DNA from: Pseudomonadota bacterium
GTDB taxonomy: Bacteria > Desulfobacterota > Desulfuromonadia > Geobacterales > Pseudopelobacteraceae
DNA: 35,466 nt
Assembly (NCBI GenBank): GCA_019352135.1
Contig: JABBNX010000017.1
Coordinates: forward strand, 1-35,466
Direction: 5' to 3'
A program made the translations under genes and the position numbers. Under the pieces are notes generated by a model that saw nothing but the letters and a program-made list of their open reading frames with translations, searched no databases and was not told the origin of the DNA. Within the stretch, counting starts at the first letter, position 1; each line of letters opens with the position of its first letter. Shown piece after piece: positions 6,675-17,687 of this stretch.

Positions 6675-7628
6675 TTATTTATTAAGCAATGCCGCCCCCC
6701 ATGCTGCCACCACCACAGCAATACTCGACATCGCCAGCAGAGCATTCAGGAAGCGCCCGGGGCGGCCATGCCTCCCGATAAGGTATTCCGTCATCATTCC
6801 GAGACAGCAGCCGGAGATAAAACCGAACAGATGCGCACCCAGATCCGTATTCTTACCCTCCGTACCAAGCAGCGCCAGTAACGCCAGGGCCGCAGAGACA
6901 GGAAGCATCCAGCGGGTGCGGAGATTGCGCCGGTACCGCACCAGACTGAGCGCCGCCAGGATGCCGACCGCGCCGAACACGGCGGTGGACGCACCGATCG
7001 AGCTATGGGTGGGAGGTTGCAGGCAGGCATTGATCAGATTACCGCACGCGCCGGCACCGAGCAGCAGGCTCCAGGCCAGCCCCGAACCGAGCTCCCGACA
7101 GAGAAAGACAATAAATATCCCGCCTATGGCCAGGTTACTGGAGAGATGAACCCAATCGGCGTGAAGGGTAAGAGCCGTCACGATTCGCCACCACTCCCCG
7201 CCGAGTATTTTTGCCGCCTGGGCATTCCCGAGGGAGACCCAATCGGGCATGGGGATGCCGGTCGCAGAGACATCAAGCTGGGTGATATTGTGAAAGGTCG
7301 CAAGGAGGAGCAGAATCGAGAGCGTTGCCAGGGTGTTCTCCGCCAGATACTGGGACGGCGGATCAGGAGGTGGCCAGTTGCGGTTCAGTTTTTCAAAACA
7401 AGACAGCTCGCGTACGGCTGTCGCATGATGCTCCGGCGGCACCAGCAGATGCCAGCCGTGCTCGTCCCTGACAATCTGGCACGGCACCAGGCGGGAGTCC
7501 AGCGCCAACGCCCAGAGCTGAATACGCTGGTGATCATGGGCGGCATCGGACCGGGCCGCCACGTCTGCCGGCAGAATTTCCAGCCAGGCAGTCTCAACCT
7601 CTTCGCTCAAAGGACGATCCAAATCCAT
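6675..7628 (-). CDS. Rhomboid-family intramembrane serine protease
   Basis: This 317-residue protein starts with a soluble region of about 110 residues (LDRPLSEEVETAWLEILPADV...) and then has roughly six to seven membrane segments. Rhomboid landmarks are visible: WWRIVTALTLHADWVHLSSN, the serine motif GASTAVFG for the catalytic Ser, and the partner histidine in GAHLFGFISG. Such enzymes cleave membrane proteins within the bilayer; the substrate here is unknown. The ATG at 7628 has an AAGG site about 5-6 bases upstream; a longer frame to 7664 exists with no better site. It starts about 60 bases after the sensor kinase on the same strand and ends about 75 bases before the nifEN promoter. A role in nitrogen fixation is not indicated. 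Confidence 0.85.
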   Translation of the reverse strand: MDLDRPLSEEVETAWLEILPADVAARSDAAHDHQRIQLWALALDSRLVPCQIVRDEHGWHLLVPPEHHATAVRELSCFEKLNRNWPPPDPPSQYLAENTLATLSILLLLATFHNITQLDVSATGIPMPDWVSLGNAQAAKILGGEWWRIVTALTLHADWVHLSSNLAIGGIFIVFLCRELGSGLAWSLLLGAGACGNLINACLQPPTHSSIGASTAVFGAVGILAALSLVRYRRNLRTRWMLPVSAALALLALLGTEGKNTDLGAHLFGFISGCCLGMMTEYLIGRHGRPGRFLNALLAMSSIAVVVAAWGAALLNK

Positions 7629-7688
7629 AGTAACCTTGTTGTACGTGCACCAGCACGACATCACACCCTGGAGCCCGAAGATGAACGA

Positions 7689-10428: not shown

Positions 10429-11703
10429 CTAGCCGAAACGATAGATCTGCGCGCCATTCTCGTAGAGCTCGATCGGGCCATCCTGAGAAACCTTGATAAC
10501 TTTGCCGAAATGTGACGCGGCGCAGGCGGCCGTGGTCCTTCCGCCACCGGCCACCATTTCCCGGGCGTGGGACGTATCGATGATAAACCCGGTATCAACC
10601 AGTTTCCCCTTCGAATTGAATACGGTCAAACCATCCGATGAAAGAATTCTGAGGAGTGTCCCGGCCTCCTTCAGTTCGCCAATGCTTCTTTTTTGCACCC
10701 GCTCTATCAGCAGCCGCCCGATGGGGTCAGAGCCGCCGACGGCCCCTTTTTTCAACCCGGCAAGCTTACGCCCGCTGCCTCCGTACACCATGACAACAGT
10801 GCCATAGCGAATCTTTGAGAGCGCATAGAGCGTCCAGATAAGATCTTCAGCCGACTCCGCGTCAATACAGTCCGCCAGGAACGCCCGGAAGATGGCCGGA
10901 TCAAACAAACTCCACACCCCTTTTCTCCGGACCATGATCCGGGCGGGACTGGAGAGTACCTCGATATCCGAAGCCTCGTTCACCGTGACGGCAAATGCAC
11001 CCGCCCCGCTTCTCCTGATAATCGAAAAAAGTTCCCGCTGGGTCAGCCGCTCCACCTCATTCTGGAGGGCGGTGCCGGACATGGTGACAATACCGTTTAC
11101 CTGCATCTGGATACCGGCCAGAAAGAACAGGTTCGTACCATCGATAAACCGGTACGTCAGCGGATTATCGAAAAAACCGGGACCGATGCTTTGTGACCTT
11201 TTCAGCGGAACCAGAGTGTGTTTGCGCTGCTTCATCACGGCACGGAGTTCTGCCGCTGTCGTGCGATGGATGATCACGCCGGTGGTGGCCGGTTTTCCTT
11301 CGTACTTCTGATAGGAAAGGCTCTTTAACAGCTGGATGAGCTGCTGGATGGGCCAGAACCCCTTGTTATGATCGCCGCGCAGGGAGCGGGCAACCGTGAT
11401 GTCCATGATGGAGGCGACAAGAGCCGTCCTGAACTGCGCCGCATACCCCTCCTGCCGGAAACCGCCGTAGAGCATGGCAAATGCGGTCAGCAGTTCGGCA
11501 CAAAACGACTCCTCCAGGCGGGTGAAAGGAATGTGTTTTCGCGTGGCACTGAATATAAGCTCCCGCCCGTCCGTCACGACCGGCAGGAATATAGCGTACC
11601 CCTCATGCTGCGCACGTTCGGCAACAGGGGAAAGAACGACCTCGGCGCCACCAAGAAAGGAGCTGATATTACCGCTCATCGCCTCAAAGATTGTCATCGG
11701 CAT
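10429..11703 (-). CDS. Protein with degenerate diadenylate-cyclase-like (DisA_N/DAC) C-terminal domain
   Basis: 424 residues. The C-terminal 75 or so residues follow the pattern of DAC domains, which join two ATP into c-di-AMP. SSDGLTVF stands where active enzymes have DGA, and GGGRTTAAC stands where they have G-T-R-H-R-A-A; the sheet-forming IKVSQDGPIELYENG end also matches. Both catalytic motifs are therefore altered (DGA to DGL, RHR to RTT). The N-terminal 340 residues resemble the variant sensor domains attached to divergent DAC proteins, but I cannot assign them firmly. It could be a c-di-AMP or nucleotide binder, a divergent cyclase, or a pseudoenzyme. The start at 11703 has GAGGAGG about 10 bases upstream. 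It is preceded by the decayed restriction locus and followed after about 120 bases by the sensor kinase. Confidence 0.6.
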   Translation of the reverse strand: MPMTIFEAMSGNISSFLGGAEVVLSPVAERAQHEGYAIFLPVVTDGRELIFSATRKHIPFTRLEESFCAELLTAFAMLYGGFRQEGYAAQFRTALVASIMDITVARSLRGDHNKGFWPIQQLIQLLKSLSYQKYEGKPATTGVIIHRTTAAELRAVMKQRKHTLVPLKRSQSIGPGFFDNPLTYRFIDGTNLFFLAGIQMQVNGIVTMSGTALQNEVERLTQRELFSIIRRSGAGAFAVTVNEASDIEVLSSPARIMVRRKGVWSLFDPAIFRAFLADCIDAESAEDLIWTLYALSKIRYGTVVMVYGGSGRKLAGLKKGAVGGSDPIGRLLIERVQKRSIGELKEAGTLLRILSSDGLTVFNSKGKLVDTGFIIDTSHAREMVAGGGRTTAACAASHFGKVIKVSQDGPIELYENGAQIYRFG

Positions 11704-11742: not shown

Positions 11743-12056
11743 CTACACCAGTGCCAGCTCCAACTTGTGCTTCCGCTTCTCCCAATCCGGCATCACCTTT
11801 TCCAACAGTCGATAAAACTCTGAACTGTGATCATGACATTGCAGATGGCAGAATGACATAGTCAATACACTCTTTTGAGACTCGAATCAGGTCTCTGTTG
11901 AGGGTAAGTGTACCTCTTTTTGACAAGCTCCCCCACCTTTTTTGCATGCGTTTGATCTGCAGGCGCGGCTTTAGCAAGTTGAGCTTATCAAAATATGGCT
12001 AGCAGTGACCCAGGCTTTCTTCAAACTTGGCGGCAGCCTTTGCAGGATACCACCCA
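11743..12056 (-). pseudogene. Remnant of YgjP/DUF45-type metallopeptidase (M48-like)
   Basis: Reading the minus strand from 12056 gives WYPAKAAAKFEESL, an in-frame stop (11999-12001), then KRMQKRWGSLSKRGTLTLN and DLIRVSKECIDYVIL. After a frame change comes CHLQCHDHSSEFYRLLEKVM plus PDWEKRK, ending at the stop at 11743-11745. This is the family pattern RWGSCS...IDYVIxHELxHL...HSxxFW...MPDW. The frame change falls exactly at the HELCH zinc motif: about 11 bases are missing near 11850, so HE is gone. With a stop codon, a deletion in the active site and no 5' end, it cannot make enzyme. Genes of this type often sit beside type I restriction genes, which fits the neighbouring remnants. Confidence 0.8.
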
Positions 12057-12127: not shown

Positions 12128-13143
12128 TCATTCCCTACCCTCCAGCTTCTTCACCATCTTGTCAAAATCAGACTCAAACAACCGATCCTGCACTATCCGG
12201 TATTTCTCGAACTCGCTTTCGGCAAAAGTCTTGGCAATCGCCTGACTAACCGTTCCCGGATGGCCTAGAATCTCCCGCTCATTGAACTGCAAAAAAGCAT
12301 TCAGCTTGTTGGCCCAATCTTCCATGGTCATGGGGATGTTGCGTTCTGCCTGATCTTCGGCGTAATCCAGATACATGGTTACGAAGCGATCAAGCGACTT
12401 CAACTCCTTTGCCGTCAGGTAATTCTTGGCTACCGAAACATCCGGTTTGAGAATTTTGCCATCGGGCGCGTTCTTCCAAGTGGTTAACCCCATGCGCTCT
12501 TTGTTGCTGTCTGCCCGTTTCATGATCAATTCGGCAGCGGTGTGTCCGTGGTGGCAAAGTGAAGCTTGTTTTGGACAGCGGCAAAGAAATTTTGGGTAAT
12601 CTCGGCATCGGCCCGATAATCCATGGCTGTGGCGTAAATGTCGGTAATCTTCTGATAGAACTTCCGCTCACTCGCCCTGATCTCGCGGATTTCGGCCAGA
12701 AGGTTTTCGTAGTACTCCTTGCTGAGAAACGAACCGTTTTTCAATCGCTCCTTATCGAGCACATAACCACGAATTGAAAAATCCCGCAGAATGCCGGTCG
12801 CCCATTGGCGGAACTGGGTAGCACGCAATGAGTTGATGCGATAACCGACCGAGATTATGGCATCGAGGTTGTAGAAATTTGTCAGGTATTGTTTGCCATC
12901 CGTGGCAGTATTCCGGAATTTCCGGATAACTGAATCTTTTTCAAGCTCATTGCTGTTGATAATATTATTGAGGTGTTCACTGATAGTCCTGACATCGACA
13001 TCAAACAGCTCAGCGATCAGCTTTTGCGTCAGCCAGACTGTTTCATCCTCAATGCGAACTTCAATGCTATTTTCACCGGAATGTGAGGTAAAAATCAGGA
13101 ACTCAGCCGTGCTGTTGCGGATCATAACTTTCTTTGCTGTCAT
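12128..13143 (-). pseudogene. rhuM: Frameshifted RhuM family gene
   Basis: Two overlapping frames together make one RhuM protein of about 338 residues, the normal family length. The first part (13143 down to about 12550) begins MTAKKVMIRN and contains EVRIEDETVWLTQKLIAELF and the QFRQWATGILRDF segment typical of the family. It runs out after NKLHFA into a short nonsense tail. The second part resumes in another frame as HGHTAAELIMKRADSN and continues through GLTTWKNAPDGKI and YLDYAEDQAER to the stop at 12128. A single lost base in the CCACCAC stretch near 12550 explains it, so this is either a young pseudogene or a sequencing error. RhuM function is not understood; such genes are common inside type I restriction-modification loci. 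Start 13143 has GGAGA upstream. Confidence 0.85.
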
Positions 13144-13502: not shown

Positions 13503-16500
13503 CTATTCCCCCGCATCCCGCAACAGCGCCATCAAATCCTCCGCTGAGACCCGCGCCGATGTCTCGGTCCCCTCCAGCAATGAATCAGCCAGGTCGCGCT
13601 TCTGGTGGTGCAGGGCGACGATCTTCTCTTCGATGGTGTTGGCCGCCACCAGGCGGTAGACCGTGACCGGACGGCTCTGGCCGATGCGGTGGGCGCGGTC
13701 AGAGGCCTGATCCTCCACCGCCGGATTCCACCACGGGTCCATATGGATGACGTAATCGGCGGCGGTCAGATTGAGGCCGACTCCCCCCGCCTTGAGGCTG
13801 ATGAGGAACAGCTCCCCCTCGCCGGACTGGAAGGCGGCGACCCGACCCTGCCGCTCTTTCTGCGGGGTCGAACCGTCGAGGTACTGATAGCTGATTCCTT
13901 CGGCATCAAGGTCGCGGCGCAGAATCGAGAGGTGATCGACGAACTGGCTGAAGACCAGCGCCCGGTGCCCACCCTCGCGCAACTCCGCGACAATGTCATG
14001 AAACGCCGCCAGCTTGGCGCTCGGTATCTCGCTCCCCGACATCACCAGCTGCGGGTTGCAGCAGGCGCGGCGCAGACGCATGATCTCGGCCAGGATGCGG
14101 ATCTGCTTCTCTCCGGGGGGTGAGTTTTCAGCACCGGAGAGATTCTCGACCGCCGTGCGCCGGAGCGCCTCGTAAAAAACTGCTTCCTCACGGGATAGTT
14201 CGACCAGGTGCAGGATATCGGTGCGTGGCGGCAACTCCTCCAGCACCTGGTTCTTGGTGCGGCGCAGGATGAAGGGGCGGATCAGCCGTTTCAGCAGGGT
14301 GCGGGCAGGTTTGCTGCCATGTTTTTCGATCTGGATGGCGAAGCGTGTGCTGAAACTGGTGTGGGAGCCGAGCAGGCCGGGGTTGAGGAAACGGAACAGG
14401 TTCCAGAGTTCATCCAGCCGGTTTTCCACCGGGGTGCCGCTGGTGGCGAGGCGGAACCCGGCTTTTATTTGCATGGCGGCCTGGGAGCGTTTGGTGGTCA
14501 TGTTCTTGATCGCCTGGGCTTCGTCCAGCACGGCGGTTTCCCACTGCACGCCGGTAAGCAGGTCGGCTTCCTGCTGAAACAGGGTATAGCTACAGATCAC
14601 CAGGTCGAACGGCGCCAACGAGGCGATGAACTCCGCACGGTTGCCGCCACCGAAGATACGCGGATTGAGCGTTGGCGCAAAGCGGCGCGCTTCACTCTCC
14701 CAGTTAAAACAGACCGAAGTAGGAGCCAGCACCAGCGCCGGACCGGCGGCGGCCCGCGTCAGCAGCAGCGCCAACGCTTGCAGCGTTTTCCCCAGGCCCA
14801 TGTCATCTGCGAGGCAGGCTCCCACTCCCCACTCTGCCAGACGGCAGAGCCAGTCGAAGCCTTCCCGCTGATACTCACGCAGCTCGGCCTGCAGCGTCGG
14901 CGGAAGCACGGGGACAAGCTCCTGAGATGTTTTGAAGCGGTCCATATCGGCCTTCCACTGTTTGTCCCCCTTCACTCCGGCGGCCCCCTGCAAGGTCTCT
15001 TCCACCAGCGGCGCGATCAGCGGGGTGAAACGGCCGTTCTTCTCCACCAGTCGCCGCAGATCCTGCAGCTTGCGGCGGAACTCTTCCGTCAGGGCCAAGA
15101 AATCACCGTCGGCCAGGCGGATGAAGCGCCCCGTTTCGCCATCCACCAGCTCCATCAAACGTTGCAGCGACATGACTTCATCATCGGAAACGGCAACTTC
15201 GCCGCTCAGAGTAAACCACTCCTTGCCGGAGTTGACCGACAGCTTCATCTTCGGCCATTCGGCTTTTCCCCGCAGCTTGAAGCTCTCCCCTTCCGGCCAG
15301 TTGATGCAGTAGCGCTCTGTTTGGCCGGCGACAACTGCCCTCAGCTCTTCAAGCAGTTCCAGGGATGCTTCCGGATCTTCAAATCGCCAGATCCCGTCCC
15401 GTATTTCAGACAGTTCCAACGCCGGACAGGCGTCCACCAGCCGGGTAAAATGCTCTTTCTCACTCGCCAACTGCCTGCTCGTCTGCAGTTTTTTACCCTT
15501 CACATCGGCGATCACCGTCGCACCGCCGCGACCGGGGATGAAACGGGGGCCTCCCTCACCGAGCGGCAGCAGGACGATCTCCATCACCAGGCCGCCGCTG
15601 TTGGGACGGAGCAGGATCTGCAGGCGGCTGTCCGGTTCAACAACAGCGGCTGCGCCATTCTCGCCGGCCACGTCGGAATGGATGATAACGTGCGGCGAAA
15701 CCGCCGTGATTGCCGCCATCACCTGCGCTTCACCGACCTGTGGCACGGTCAGTTTAGCGCCGATGATGCGGGCGATGCGCCGCTGATCCGCCGTCGGCTC
15801 GAACAACAGCAGACGGCTCGTCCCTTCCCAACGGAAAAATGCATAATTCTCGACGTTGATCGAAGGTTTCAACGTGATGCAGAGATTGCCCTTAACCCGC
15901 TTGACCTCCAGGGCGAATTCACCTTTCGCCACGCTGATCTGTTCAGCATCATGCACGGCGTTAAAGACCAGCGGATGCCCGGCCATGGCCCTGATCGCCC
16001 GCACCGTGTCGAATTCGTACACCTCCTTGCCGTAATATCCATAGCCGCTGCGGTTCTTTTTTATGCACGCCACGATCTCCCGGTCCTGGGGCGACAGGAA
16101 GTCCAGCTTGACGCCATCCTCTTTCAGGCGCTTCAGCGCCGCGTTACGGCCGGTACTCCACCCCTTGCCGCTCTGCTTCTGCTCGATCGGCTGAATATCG
16201 ACGTACGTTTCGTTACCGGAGAGCATCCAGATGATGCGGGTCGCCTTTACCACACCTTCTTTTGCCGCCATCGGAGCGGCGCCCCCCAACGACATGAGCG
16301 CCTTGAGCGAACGTTCCCAGTTGTCGGCGCTATCGGCTTTTTCGCTGATACTGACCAGCCCTCCGATTTGAAACAGCTGCACGCCCACGGCGGTCATGTC
16401 CCGGCCGTCCGGATTGATCCTTTTGCCCAGGAACGCCGCTTCTGCGCCAAGCCAGAAGTAGCCGCTTTTTGTCGACTCGGTACGGATGCGCTCCAACGCC

Positions 16501-17687
16501 TTCAGATGTGGTGTCGCAACGGTTTCCGGCATCCAGTGACCGATCAGCGAATGAAACAGCTGCGACATCGGCCCCAGTTTTTGTTCGCGGTTGCAGAGTT
16601 GGATAAGGTCTTGTTTCGCACTGTTTTTCCCCAGTTTCACCTCAGCGTACTGGTGCAACATCCAGATCACAAACTGCTGCGGGTGGTTTCGCTGTTTGAT
16701 CACCCATTCACCCAGTTCGACCGCCGCCTGCAGCTGCTGCGGCAGGCCGCTGCGAATAAGCGCCAGCAGGTAAAACAGGCCGGGTAGGTCCCGGAAAAAG
16801 ACCTTGCGCTTGCCGCTCTCTTTTTTCAGCGCTGCCATGCCACTCTCAAAATGGGCGATAGCCAGATCATCATCTCCCTGCAGCACCGCCAGCCAGCCGC
16901 GCAGGTCATCCACAGGCAGCGTTTCACTGCTCTTCAGGATCTGCGTTACCTTGTTGATCTGCCCGCGCAACAGCAGCTGTGTCAGGTAGAACTTCAAGGT
17001 TTTGAGAGACGGTTCCCTGCCAGAGGTTATGAGTTCTTCGAGCAATCCGAAAGCGGCGTCAGACGGATGGAGCTTCAGCAGTGATTGTTCGAGATGAAAC
17101 GAAAGAATATCGGCCTGGAGAGGTCCCGGCATCTCCTTGATCCATTCACTGTCCAGCGGTTCAGGGCATACCAGCGAAAAAGGATGATTATTGCTGACTT
17201 CCCACGAATAGTTATTCCAACAGATGGAAAGCCGCCGAGTGACGTCGGCATAATTGCCGCGATACAGGGCGATTCGAAGATCCTGCACAGCGAGTGCAAA
17301 CGAGCGGTAGTACGTAGAACCGTACGATATTGTGGGCTTAAGATTCTCCTGCACCGCTTGTGCATAGCGTTCAAAATGCCCAGCCTTTTGAGTCTGACGC
17401 GTAAGAAAATGCGATAGCAGCGGATTGCAGCGATAGGCGCCGCTGATTTCAACCACAAGATTGCTGCCGACAAGTTTTTCCATGAGCGGGATTACAAGAG
17501 CTGGGTTCATGGTCTTGCCCTGTGTACTCTGTATTTCAGCGCTTTGAAGGCACAGGGCAAATGGGCTGCGGGCAACCGGTGCATACATAACGGCCAGCAT
17601 GGCAAGTGCGGCACGTTCTGCCGGGTGCAGAGCGGTGATCGTGTCAAGGAATGATAGAATTTGCTCTTCTGATTGATTGGTTGACAT
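13503..17687 (-). CDS. SNF2-family DNA-dependent ATPase/helicase with large N-terminal region
   Basis: 1394 residues. The C-terminal third is a complete SNF2 motor: LREYQREGFDWL, Walker A ADDMGLGKT near residue 960, DEAQAIKN near 1053, SGTPVENRLDELW, LRRTKNQVLEELPP. The second lobe has LVFSQFVDHL, YLDGSTP, LISLKAGGVGLNLTAADYVI and DRAHRIGQ. Such proteins move along or remodel DNA-protein complexes. The first 900 residues start with a winged-helix-like segment (LHPAERAALAMLAVMY) and look helical and repeat-like, and I cannot assign them further; no SWIM zinc finger was seen. ATG 17687 has AAAGG about 8 bases upstream. Its 3' end lies 33 bases from the hsdM fragment. It could be housekeeping or part of an island. 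It is only distantly similar to the second SNF2 gene in this window. Confidence 0.88.
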   Translation of the reverse strand: MSTNQSEEQILSFLDTITALHPAERAALAMLAVMYAPVARSPFALCLQSAEIQSTQGKTMNPALVIPLMEKLVGSNLVVEISGAYRCNPLLSHFLTRQTQKAGHFERYAQAVQENLKPTISYGSTYYRSFALAVQDLRIALYRGNYADVTRRLSICWNNYSWEVSNNHPFSLVCPEPLDSEWIKEMPGPLQADILSFHLEQSLLKLHPSDAAFGLLEELITSGREPSLKTLKFYLTQLLLRGQINKVTQILKSSETLPVDDLRGWLAVLQGDDDLAIAHFESGMAALKKESGKRKVFFRDLPGLFYLLALIRSGLPQQLQAAVELGEWVIKQRNHPQQFVIWMLHQYAEVKLGKNSAKQDLIQLCNREQKLGPMSQLFHSLIGHWMPETVATPHLKALERIRTESTKSGYFWLGAEAAFLGKRINPDGRDMTAVGVQLFQIGGLVSISEKADSADNWERSLKALMSLGGAAPMAAKEGVVKATRIIWMLSGNETYVDIQPIEQKQSGKGWSTGRNAALKRLKEDGVKLDFLSPQDREIVACIKKNRSGYGYYGKEVYEFDTVRAIRAMAGHPLVFNAVHDAEQISVAKGEFALEVKRVKGNLCITLKPSINVENYAFFRWEGTSRLLLFEPTADQRRIARIIGAKLTVPQVGEAQVMAAITAVSPHVIIHSDVAGENGAAAVVEPDSRLQILLRPNSGGLVMEIVLLPLGEGGPRFIPGRGGATVIADVKGKKLQTSRQLASEKEHFTRLVDACPALELSEIRDGIWRFEDPEASLELLEELRAVVAGQTERYCINWPEGESFKLRGKAEWPKMKLSVNSGKEWFTLSGEVAVSDDEVMSLQRLMELVDGETGRFIRLADGDFLALTEEFRRKLQDLRRLVEKNGRFTPLIAPLVEETLQGAAGVKGDKQWKADMDRFKTSQELVPVLPPTLQAELREYQREGFDWLCRLAEWGVGACLADDMGLGKTLQALALLLTRAAAGPALVLAPTSVCFNWESEARRFAPTLNPRIFGGGNRAEFIASLAPFDLVICSYTLFQQEADLLTGVQWETAVLDEAQAIKNMTTKRSQAAMQIKAGFRLATSGTPVENRLDELWNLFRFLNPGLLGSHTSFSTRFAIQIEKHGSKPARTLLKRLIRPFILRRTKNQVLEELPPRTDILHLVELSREEAVFYEALRRTAVENLSGAENSPPGEKQIRILAEIMRLRRACCNPQLVMSGSEIPSAKLAAFHDIVAELREGGHRALVFSQFVDHLSILRRDLDAEGISYQYLDGSTPQKERQGRVAAFQSGEGELFLISLKAGGVGLNLTAADYVIHMDPWWNPAVEDQASDRAHRIGQSRPVTVYRLVAANTIEEKIVALHHQKRDLADSLLEGTETSARVSAEDLMALLRDAGE

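Follow-up and report, generated by a model that had tools for sequence, protein, structure and literature searches.

A lineage-restricted protein family with a divergent diadenylate cyclase-like domain and altered DGA and RHR motifs

Introduction

The usual assumption is that c-di-AMP is the product of diadenylate cyclase (DAC) domains. A gene from a bacterium of the Geobacterales (assembly GCA_019352135.1) raises the question of what such a domain does when its active-site motifs have changed. The gene lies at positions 10,429–11,703 (minus strand) of contig JABBNX010000017.1, of which the whole analysed stretch of 35,466 nucleotides is called the window here. It encodes a DAC-like variant of 424 residues. 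If the family is kept under selection for its altered site, the DAC fold would also serve as a receptor or make something else. Degenerate GGDEF domains are a parallel case, in which an enzyme fold has turned into a receptor or been put to another use. The protein is small and well suited to assays of nucleotide binding and synthesis, and its sister families tie DAC-like variants to restriction and CBASS loci. A literature search at the level of abstracts, covering DACNV/DACNG-type names and c-di-AMP in Geobacter, with Galperin's catalogue of DAC architectures outside its scope, found no paper on the family.

Results and Discussion

Reading frame and selection

The open reading frame is a real gene under purifying selection. 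It starts with ATG, a GGAGG-like sequence precedes the start codon, and many genomes carry homologues that agree with it in length and frame and are free of internal stops. The differences from the nearest relatives are mostly silent; compared with the gene at locus L031, 62 differences were found at the 424 third positions and 10 at the 848 first and second positions.

Distant kinship of the C-terminal part to DACs

The C-terminal domain (about residues 288–424; 10,432–10,842, minus strand) is approximately 135 residues long and begins near residue 288. An earlier note on this DNA, made from the sequence alone, had considered the DAC fold pattern clear and proposed a profile search against DAC families as a check. 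On its own, the window protein had no match in Pfam or NCBIfam at E≤0.1, in PADLOC or PHROGs at E≤1, or to PF02457 (Pfam cut-off, 27 bits) at E≤1. A sequence search of the PDB returned chance-level chains only (best E 0.14). However, PF02457 was matched at E≤1 by 27 of the 32 aligned homologues in alignment A3 (best E 8.7e-6) and by 14 of the 19 members in alignment A2. The match of L109 spans model positions 4–118 of 119 (E 1.1e-4) but, at 22.2 bits, stays below the cut-off, as does that of L093 (15 bits). The DAC signal thus emerges only through the family profile or other members.

For profile-profile comparisons with hhalign, 38 DAC fragments were drawn from the phylum by the DG[AC] pattern; 30 of them have RHR-like motifs and eight are variants. 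Alignment A3 matched this set with a probability of 95.3% and a score of 59.9 (maximum of 100 column shuffles, 20.9), and the C-terminal part alone matched it with 96.2%, an E value of 2.6e-9, and a score of 56.1 (shuffle maximum, 19.4). Scores of 37.2 and 24.8 came from comparisons with alignments A4 and A6. The 30 canonical-type fragments alone gave 33.5 (shuffle maximum, 23.9), and the score was 31.4 with a DACNV set of five sequences (shuffle maximum, 26.6), whereas the score of 14.2 with a five-sequence canonical set fell inside the shuffle range (60 shuffles, maximum 30.4). Because the score is strong with the 38 fragments and weaker or null with the smaller sets, homology of the C-terminal domain to DACs is supported but distant.

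Structure prediction with AlphaFold2 gave low-confidence models that speak neither for nor against a DAC fold. The whole protein, modeled from 14 sequences, had a mean pLDDT of 40.6, with values of 67–84 reached only at about residues 1–80, and residues 222–424 modeled separately had a mean of 36.5. Foldseek gave no match at E≤0.001 with a low-confidence model whose pLDDT is too low for this result to carry weight.

Altered active-site motifs

The proposal that both catalytic motifs are altered was borne out. In the profile-profile alignment with canonical DACs, DGL (residues 357–359; 10,627–10,635, minus strand) falls on DGA, and GGRTTAA falls on GTRHRAA, placing RTT (residues 389–391; 10,531–10,539, minus strand) on RHR. 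Neither DGA nor RHR occurs in any of the 58 distinct family sequences. All 58 carry DG[MLI]T (DGMT in 29, DGLT in 23, DGIT in six) and GGRT[TA]A (GGRTTAA in 54, GGRTAAA in three, GGRTTAS in one), and the S[QE]DG stretch reads SQDG in 41 and SEDG in 17. The most conserved 15-residue windows of the protein lie at the GGGRTTAA loop and at residues 120–143 (the SYQRYEG region). As the motifs are fixed throughout and the GGGRTTAA loop is highly conserved, the site is kept, and the alteration is a family-wide property rather than decay.

Compared with canonical DACs (CdaA and DisA; PF02457), the family retains the D-G pair, the first arginine of RHR, the A-A pair, and the S-x-x-G region. It differs in having DG[MLI] for DGA and RT[TA] for RHR, with no basic residues in place of the lost histidine and arginine, in its N-terminal part, and in scoring below the Pfam cut-off.

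N-terminal region and sister families

The N-terminal region (about residues 1–284; 10,852–11,703, minus strand) has no Pfam match in the window protein or in 32 members. The earlier description of an arrangement unlike DisA or CdaA therefore agrees with the Pfam result, while its length is about 285 residues instead of 340. A DACNV-like sensor at residues 118–208 was considered and rejected, since no signal rose above shuffles. The hhalign scores of the N-terminal part against DACNV and DACNH (17.3 and 14.4) lie within those of 60 shuffles, and neither domain was among the Pfam matches of the 32 members at E≤1.

The region is instead common to a sister family, brB (L084, L118–L120); the N-terminal parts of the two families alone align by hhalign with a probability of 97.4 and an E value of 1.4e-11. 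The whole protein is matched by the profiles of brB (E 4e-23 over 382 columns) and of a second family, brA (L083 and L085; E 4e-14 over 404 columns). Despite this nearly full-length kinship, both brA and brB keep DGA. Where canonical DACs have GTRHRAA, brA has GARSTAA and brB has GGGR[RTL]AAA.

DACNV-DAC and DACNH-DAC proteins (PF21751 and PF21750) also have a long N-terminal stretch preceding the DAC domain, but this stretch has no detectable kinship to that of the family. RHR is kept in the DACNV examples, and so is DGA except in L124, which has DGC; among the DAC-like classes sampled, with a fragment set picked by the DG[AC] pattern, this is the only departure from DGA besides the family. 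A further DAC-like class in the phylum has GAR[YF]NSA. It includes L086, the sole PF21750 match, which keeps DGA and has RYN for RHR, and L126, which matches the antiphage protein model NF053872 (DS2_3) with 75.9 bits, far below the cut-off, and has RFN. The family and DS2_3 have a DAC-type domain in common, and L126, a phylum relative of DS2_3, likewise lacks an intact RHR. NF053872 was not matched by L109 or L101 at E≤1 or by the window protein at E≤0.1. In the genome of the window, no DACNV or DS2_3 protein was matched, and the positive controls of that search gave no match either.

It is doubtful, although conceivable, that the family, brA, and brB form one unnamed clade of signalling proteins that arose from DACs and have their N-terminal module in common. 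Such a clade would have lost RHR and then DGA stepwise, would read or make a non-canonical nucleotide signal, and would have been recruited repeatedly to phage defence.

Distribution and c-di-AMP signalling

Homologues were found in 33 of 58 relatives and, in a patchy pattern, in 79 of 195 genomes of one bacterial class; in each count, a few of the matches are partial or weak. A draw of 297 genomes from across the phylum gave matches in 12, of which seven are full-length and in genomes of the same order and five are remote and confined to the C-terminal part. In a tree of 57 rows, the copies from the genus of the window stand in three places, and a single clade for the 18 genus rows was rejected (p-AU 7.5e-6, quick tree). 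The patchy presence and the scattered genus copies together suggest exchange or repeated loss of the gene. Scans of viral sequences with alignments A2, A3, A4, and A5 gave no relative, and no plasmid match was found for the family gene, so spread by viruses and by plasmids was rejected. Overall, the family is both lineage-restricted and conserved.

Canonical DACs are present independently of the family. The genome of the window has two, on other contigs than the family gene (G000:C239 and G000:C58), and the latter shows CdaA_N, DAC, and YbbR domains by Pfam. PF02457 DACs above the cut-off were found in all 58 relatives searched, with or without the family gene; therefore, the family gene is not needed for c-di-AMP synthesis. 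The genome also contains a c-di-AMP riboswitch (G000:C122:39380-39520, 83.2 bits) about 90 bases upstream of an open reading frame that reads, by eye, as a KUP-type K+ transporter. With ordinary DACs and this riboswitch, c-di-AMP signalling exists without the family gene. A riboswitch upstream of the family gene itself was rejected, as the window gave no Rfam match; at nine other family loci, the single riboswitch was a SAM riboswitch about 2.5 kb from the gene.

Function of the altered domain

We lean, with limited confidence, towards the protein being a regulatory pseudoenzyme or a sensor that binds nucleotides, derived in either case from a DAC. The C-terminal domain descends from DACs. Of RHR, which canonical enzymes require for holding ATP, only the first R is left, and the small residue at the third position of DGA is gone, while the D, the G, and the S-x-D-G stretch are retained. 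The remaining pocket may bind an adenine nucleotide; the likeliest candidates are ATP and the c-di-AMP that the two ordinary DACs of the cell produce. The bound state may be passed on to the conserved N-terminal module or to a partner protein. The DAC homology, the fixed motifs, the ordinary DACs in all 58 relatives searched, the c-di-AMP riboswitch of the genome, and the accessory spread (79/195, with genus copies outside a single clade) speak for this reading. The retained catalytic aspartate and the modest or null scores against canonical DACs only speak against it, and with a mean pLDDT below 41 neither model lends it support.

A rather unlikely alternative is that the protein still acts as a nucleotide cyclase or nucleotidyltransferase but by a different chemistry, in which the D and G would hold the metal and ribose side and GGGRTT would accept another substrate or product. 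The Asp, the Gly, the first Arg, and the flanking loops are invariant, and several DAC-like classes of the phylum lack the H and the second R and yet retain DG. One such protein, L126, matches a model that, by its name alone, would describe the DAC of DS-2. According to the report on this DefensePredictor system, DS-2 joins CBASS with a DAC, and its antiphage defence was lost when two predicted catalytic residues of the DAC were mutated (PMC13092281). Since DS-2 needs these residues and L126 has RFN, loss of RHR need not mean inactivity. However, M. tuberculosis DacA with AAA in place of RHR no longer bound ATP or made c-di-AMP, and the G73A variant of that enzyme retained activity (PMC3328451). 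The absence of basic residues in place of the lost H and R also argues against an altered cyclase. So does the DG followed by a bulky residue, a change of DGA that is consistent only in this family among the DAC-like classes sampled, with a fragment set picked by the DG[AC] pattern.

Quite unlikely, in our estimate, is a pseudo-subunit that would pair with the canonical CdaA-type DACs of the cell and tune their activity by head-to-head contact, with no ligand sensing of its own. DAC catalysis requires two domains face to face (PMC8573169), and canonical DACs occur in all 58 genomes searched. However, the family is patchy while DACs are universal in the genome set, the canonical DACs of this genome lie on other contigs, and no neighbour gene is common to the 37 neighbourhoods described below. 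A sensor or regulatory pseudoenzyme remains the preferred reading in what follows.

Neighbourhood and the link to defence

The earlier note had placed the gene next to a former restriction island. Directly upstream lies a remnant of a YgjP-like metallopeptidase (11,746–11,850, minus strand; PF01863, E 7.7e-9), 35 codons that are left at the end of a type I restriction operon now lost, and L035 retains hsdR-ygjP upstream of the same family gene. The remnant is thus genuine but a trait of this locus; it is no general feature, and the neighbours vary. Among the 37 loci compared, only the target gene was common to all, and the next cluster, that of the histidine kinase of the window, reached 16; a conserved operon partner was thus rejected. 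At 36 family loci, 125 neighbours were scanned of 128 selected. Within the best 25 of 70 PADLOC families, none matched more than two of these neighbours at E≤1e-15. The commonest Pfam families (best 25 of 101) were Response_reg (14), HATPase_c (9), Oxidored_nitro (8), and Rhomboid (8), so that signalling genes, nitrogenase, and rhomboid genes are the commonest neighbours.

Two brB loci do have a defence context. In L171 (G071:C17, 5369-15246), brB lies in a type I restriction operon of the order hsdM-hsdS-[brB]-AlbA_2-hsdR. In L175 (NZ_AP023285.1, 8956-14756), on an Agrobacterium vitis plasmid, a brB protein that is 36.8% identical and annotated as hypothetical adjoins patatin (phospholipase), DncV-like, ThiF, and Mov34 (JAB) genes, a complete-looking CBASS set. 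Five other brB contexts (Paracoccus, Vescimonas, and L166–L168) showed no restriction or CBASS system by annotation or by eye. These two brB loci, hsdR-ygjP at L035, and the patchy, exchanged distribution would suit a role in phage-defence signalling, with kinship to the DACs that accompany CBASS, but DS-2 is a CBASS-like operon, whereas the family loci have no recurrent defence neighbour (best 25 of 70 PADLOC families), their common neighbours are of other kinds, and the family has no plasmid match, all of which makes such a role improbable.

Some further features of the neighbourhood were observed. Members of one gene cluster stand no more than two genes away from the DAC-like gene at nine of the 37 loci, on varying strands; the member in the window, at 6675–7664 (minus strand), encodes a rhomboid-domain protein (PF01694). 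A RhuM-family gene (12,128–13,143, minus strand) is broken into two frames that overlap; each half matches PF13310, and the gene's counterpart in L031 is a single open reading frame of 338 residues. An SNF2 helicase of 1394 residues is encoded at 13,503–17,687 (minus strand); it matches PADLOC DpdE models strongly, with an E value of 2.6e-179, but is far below the NCBIfam cut-offs.
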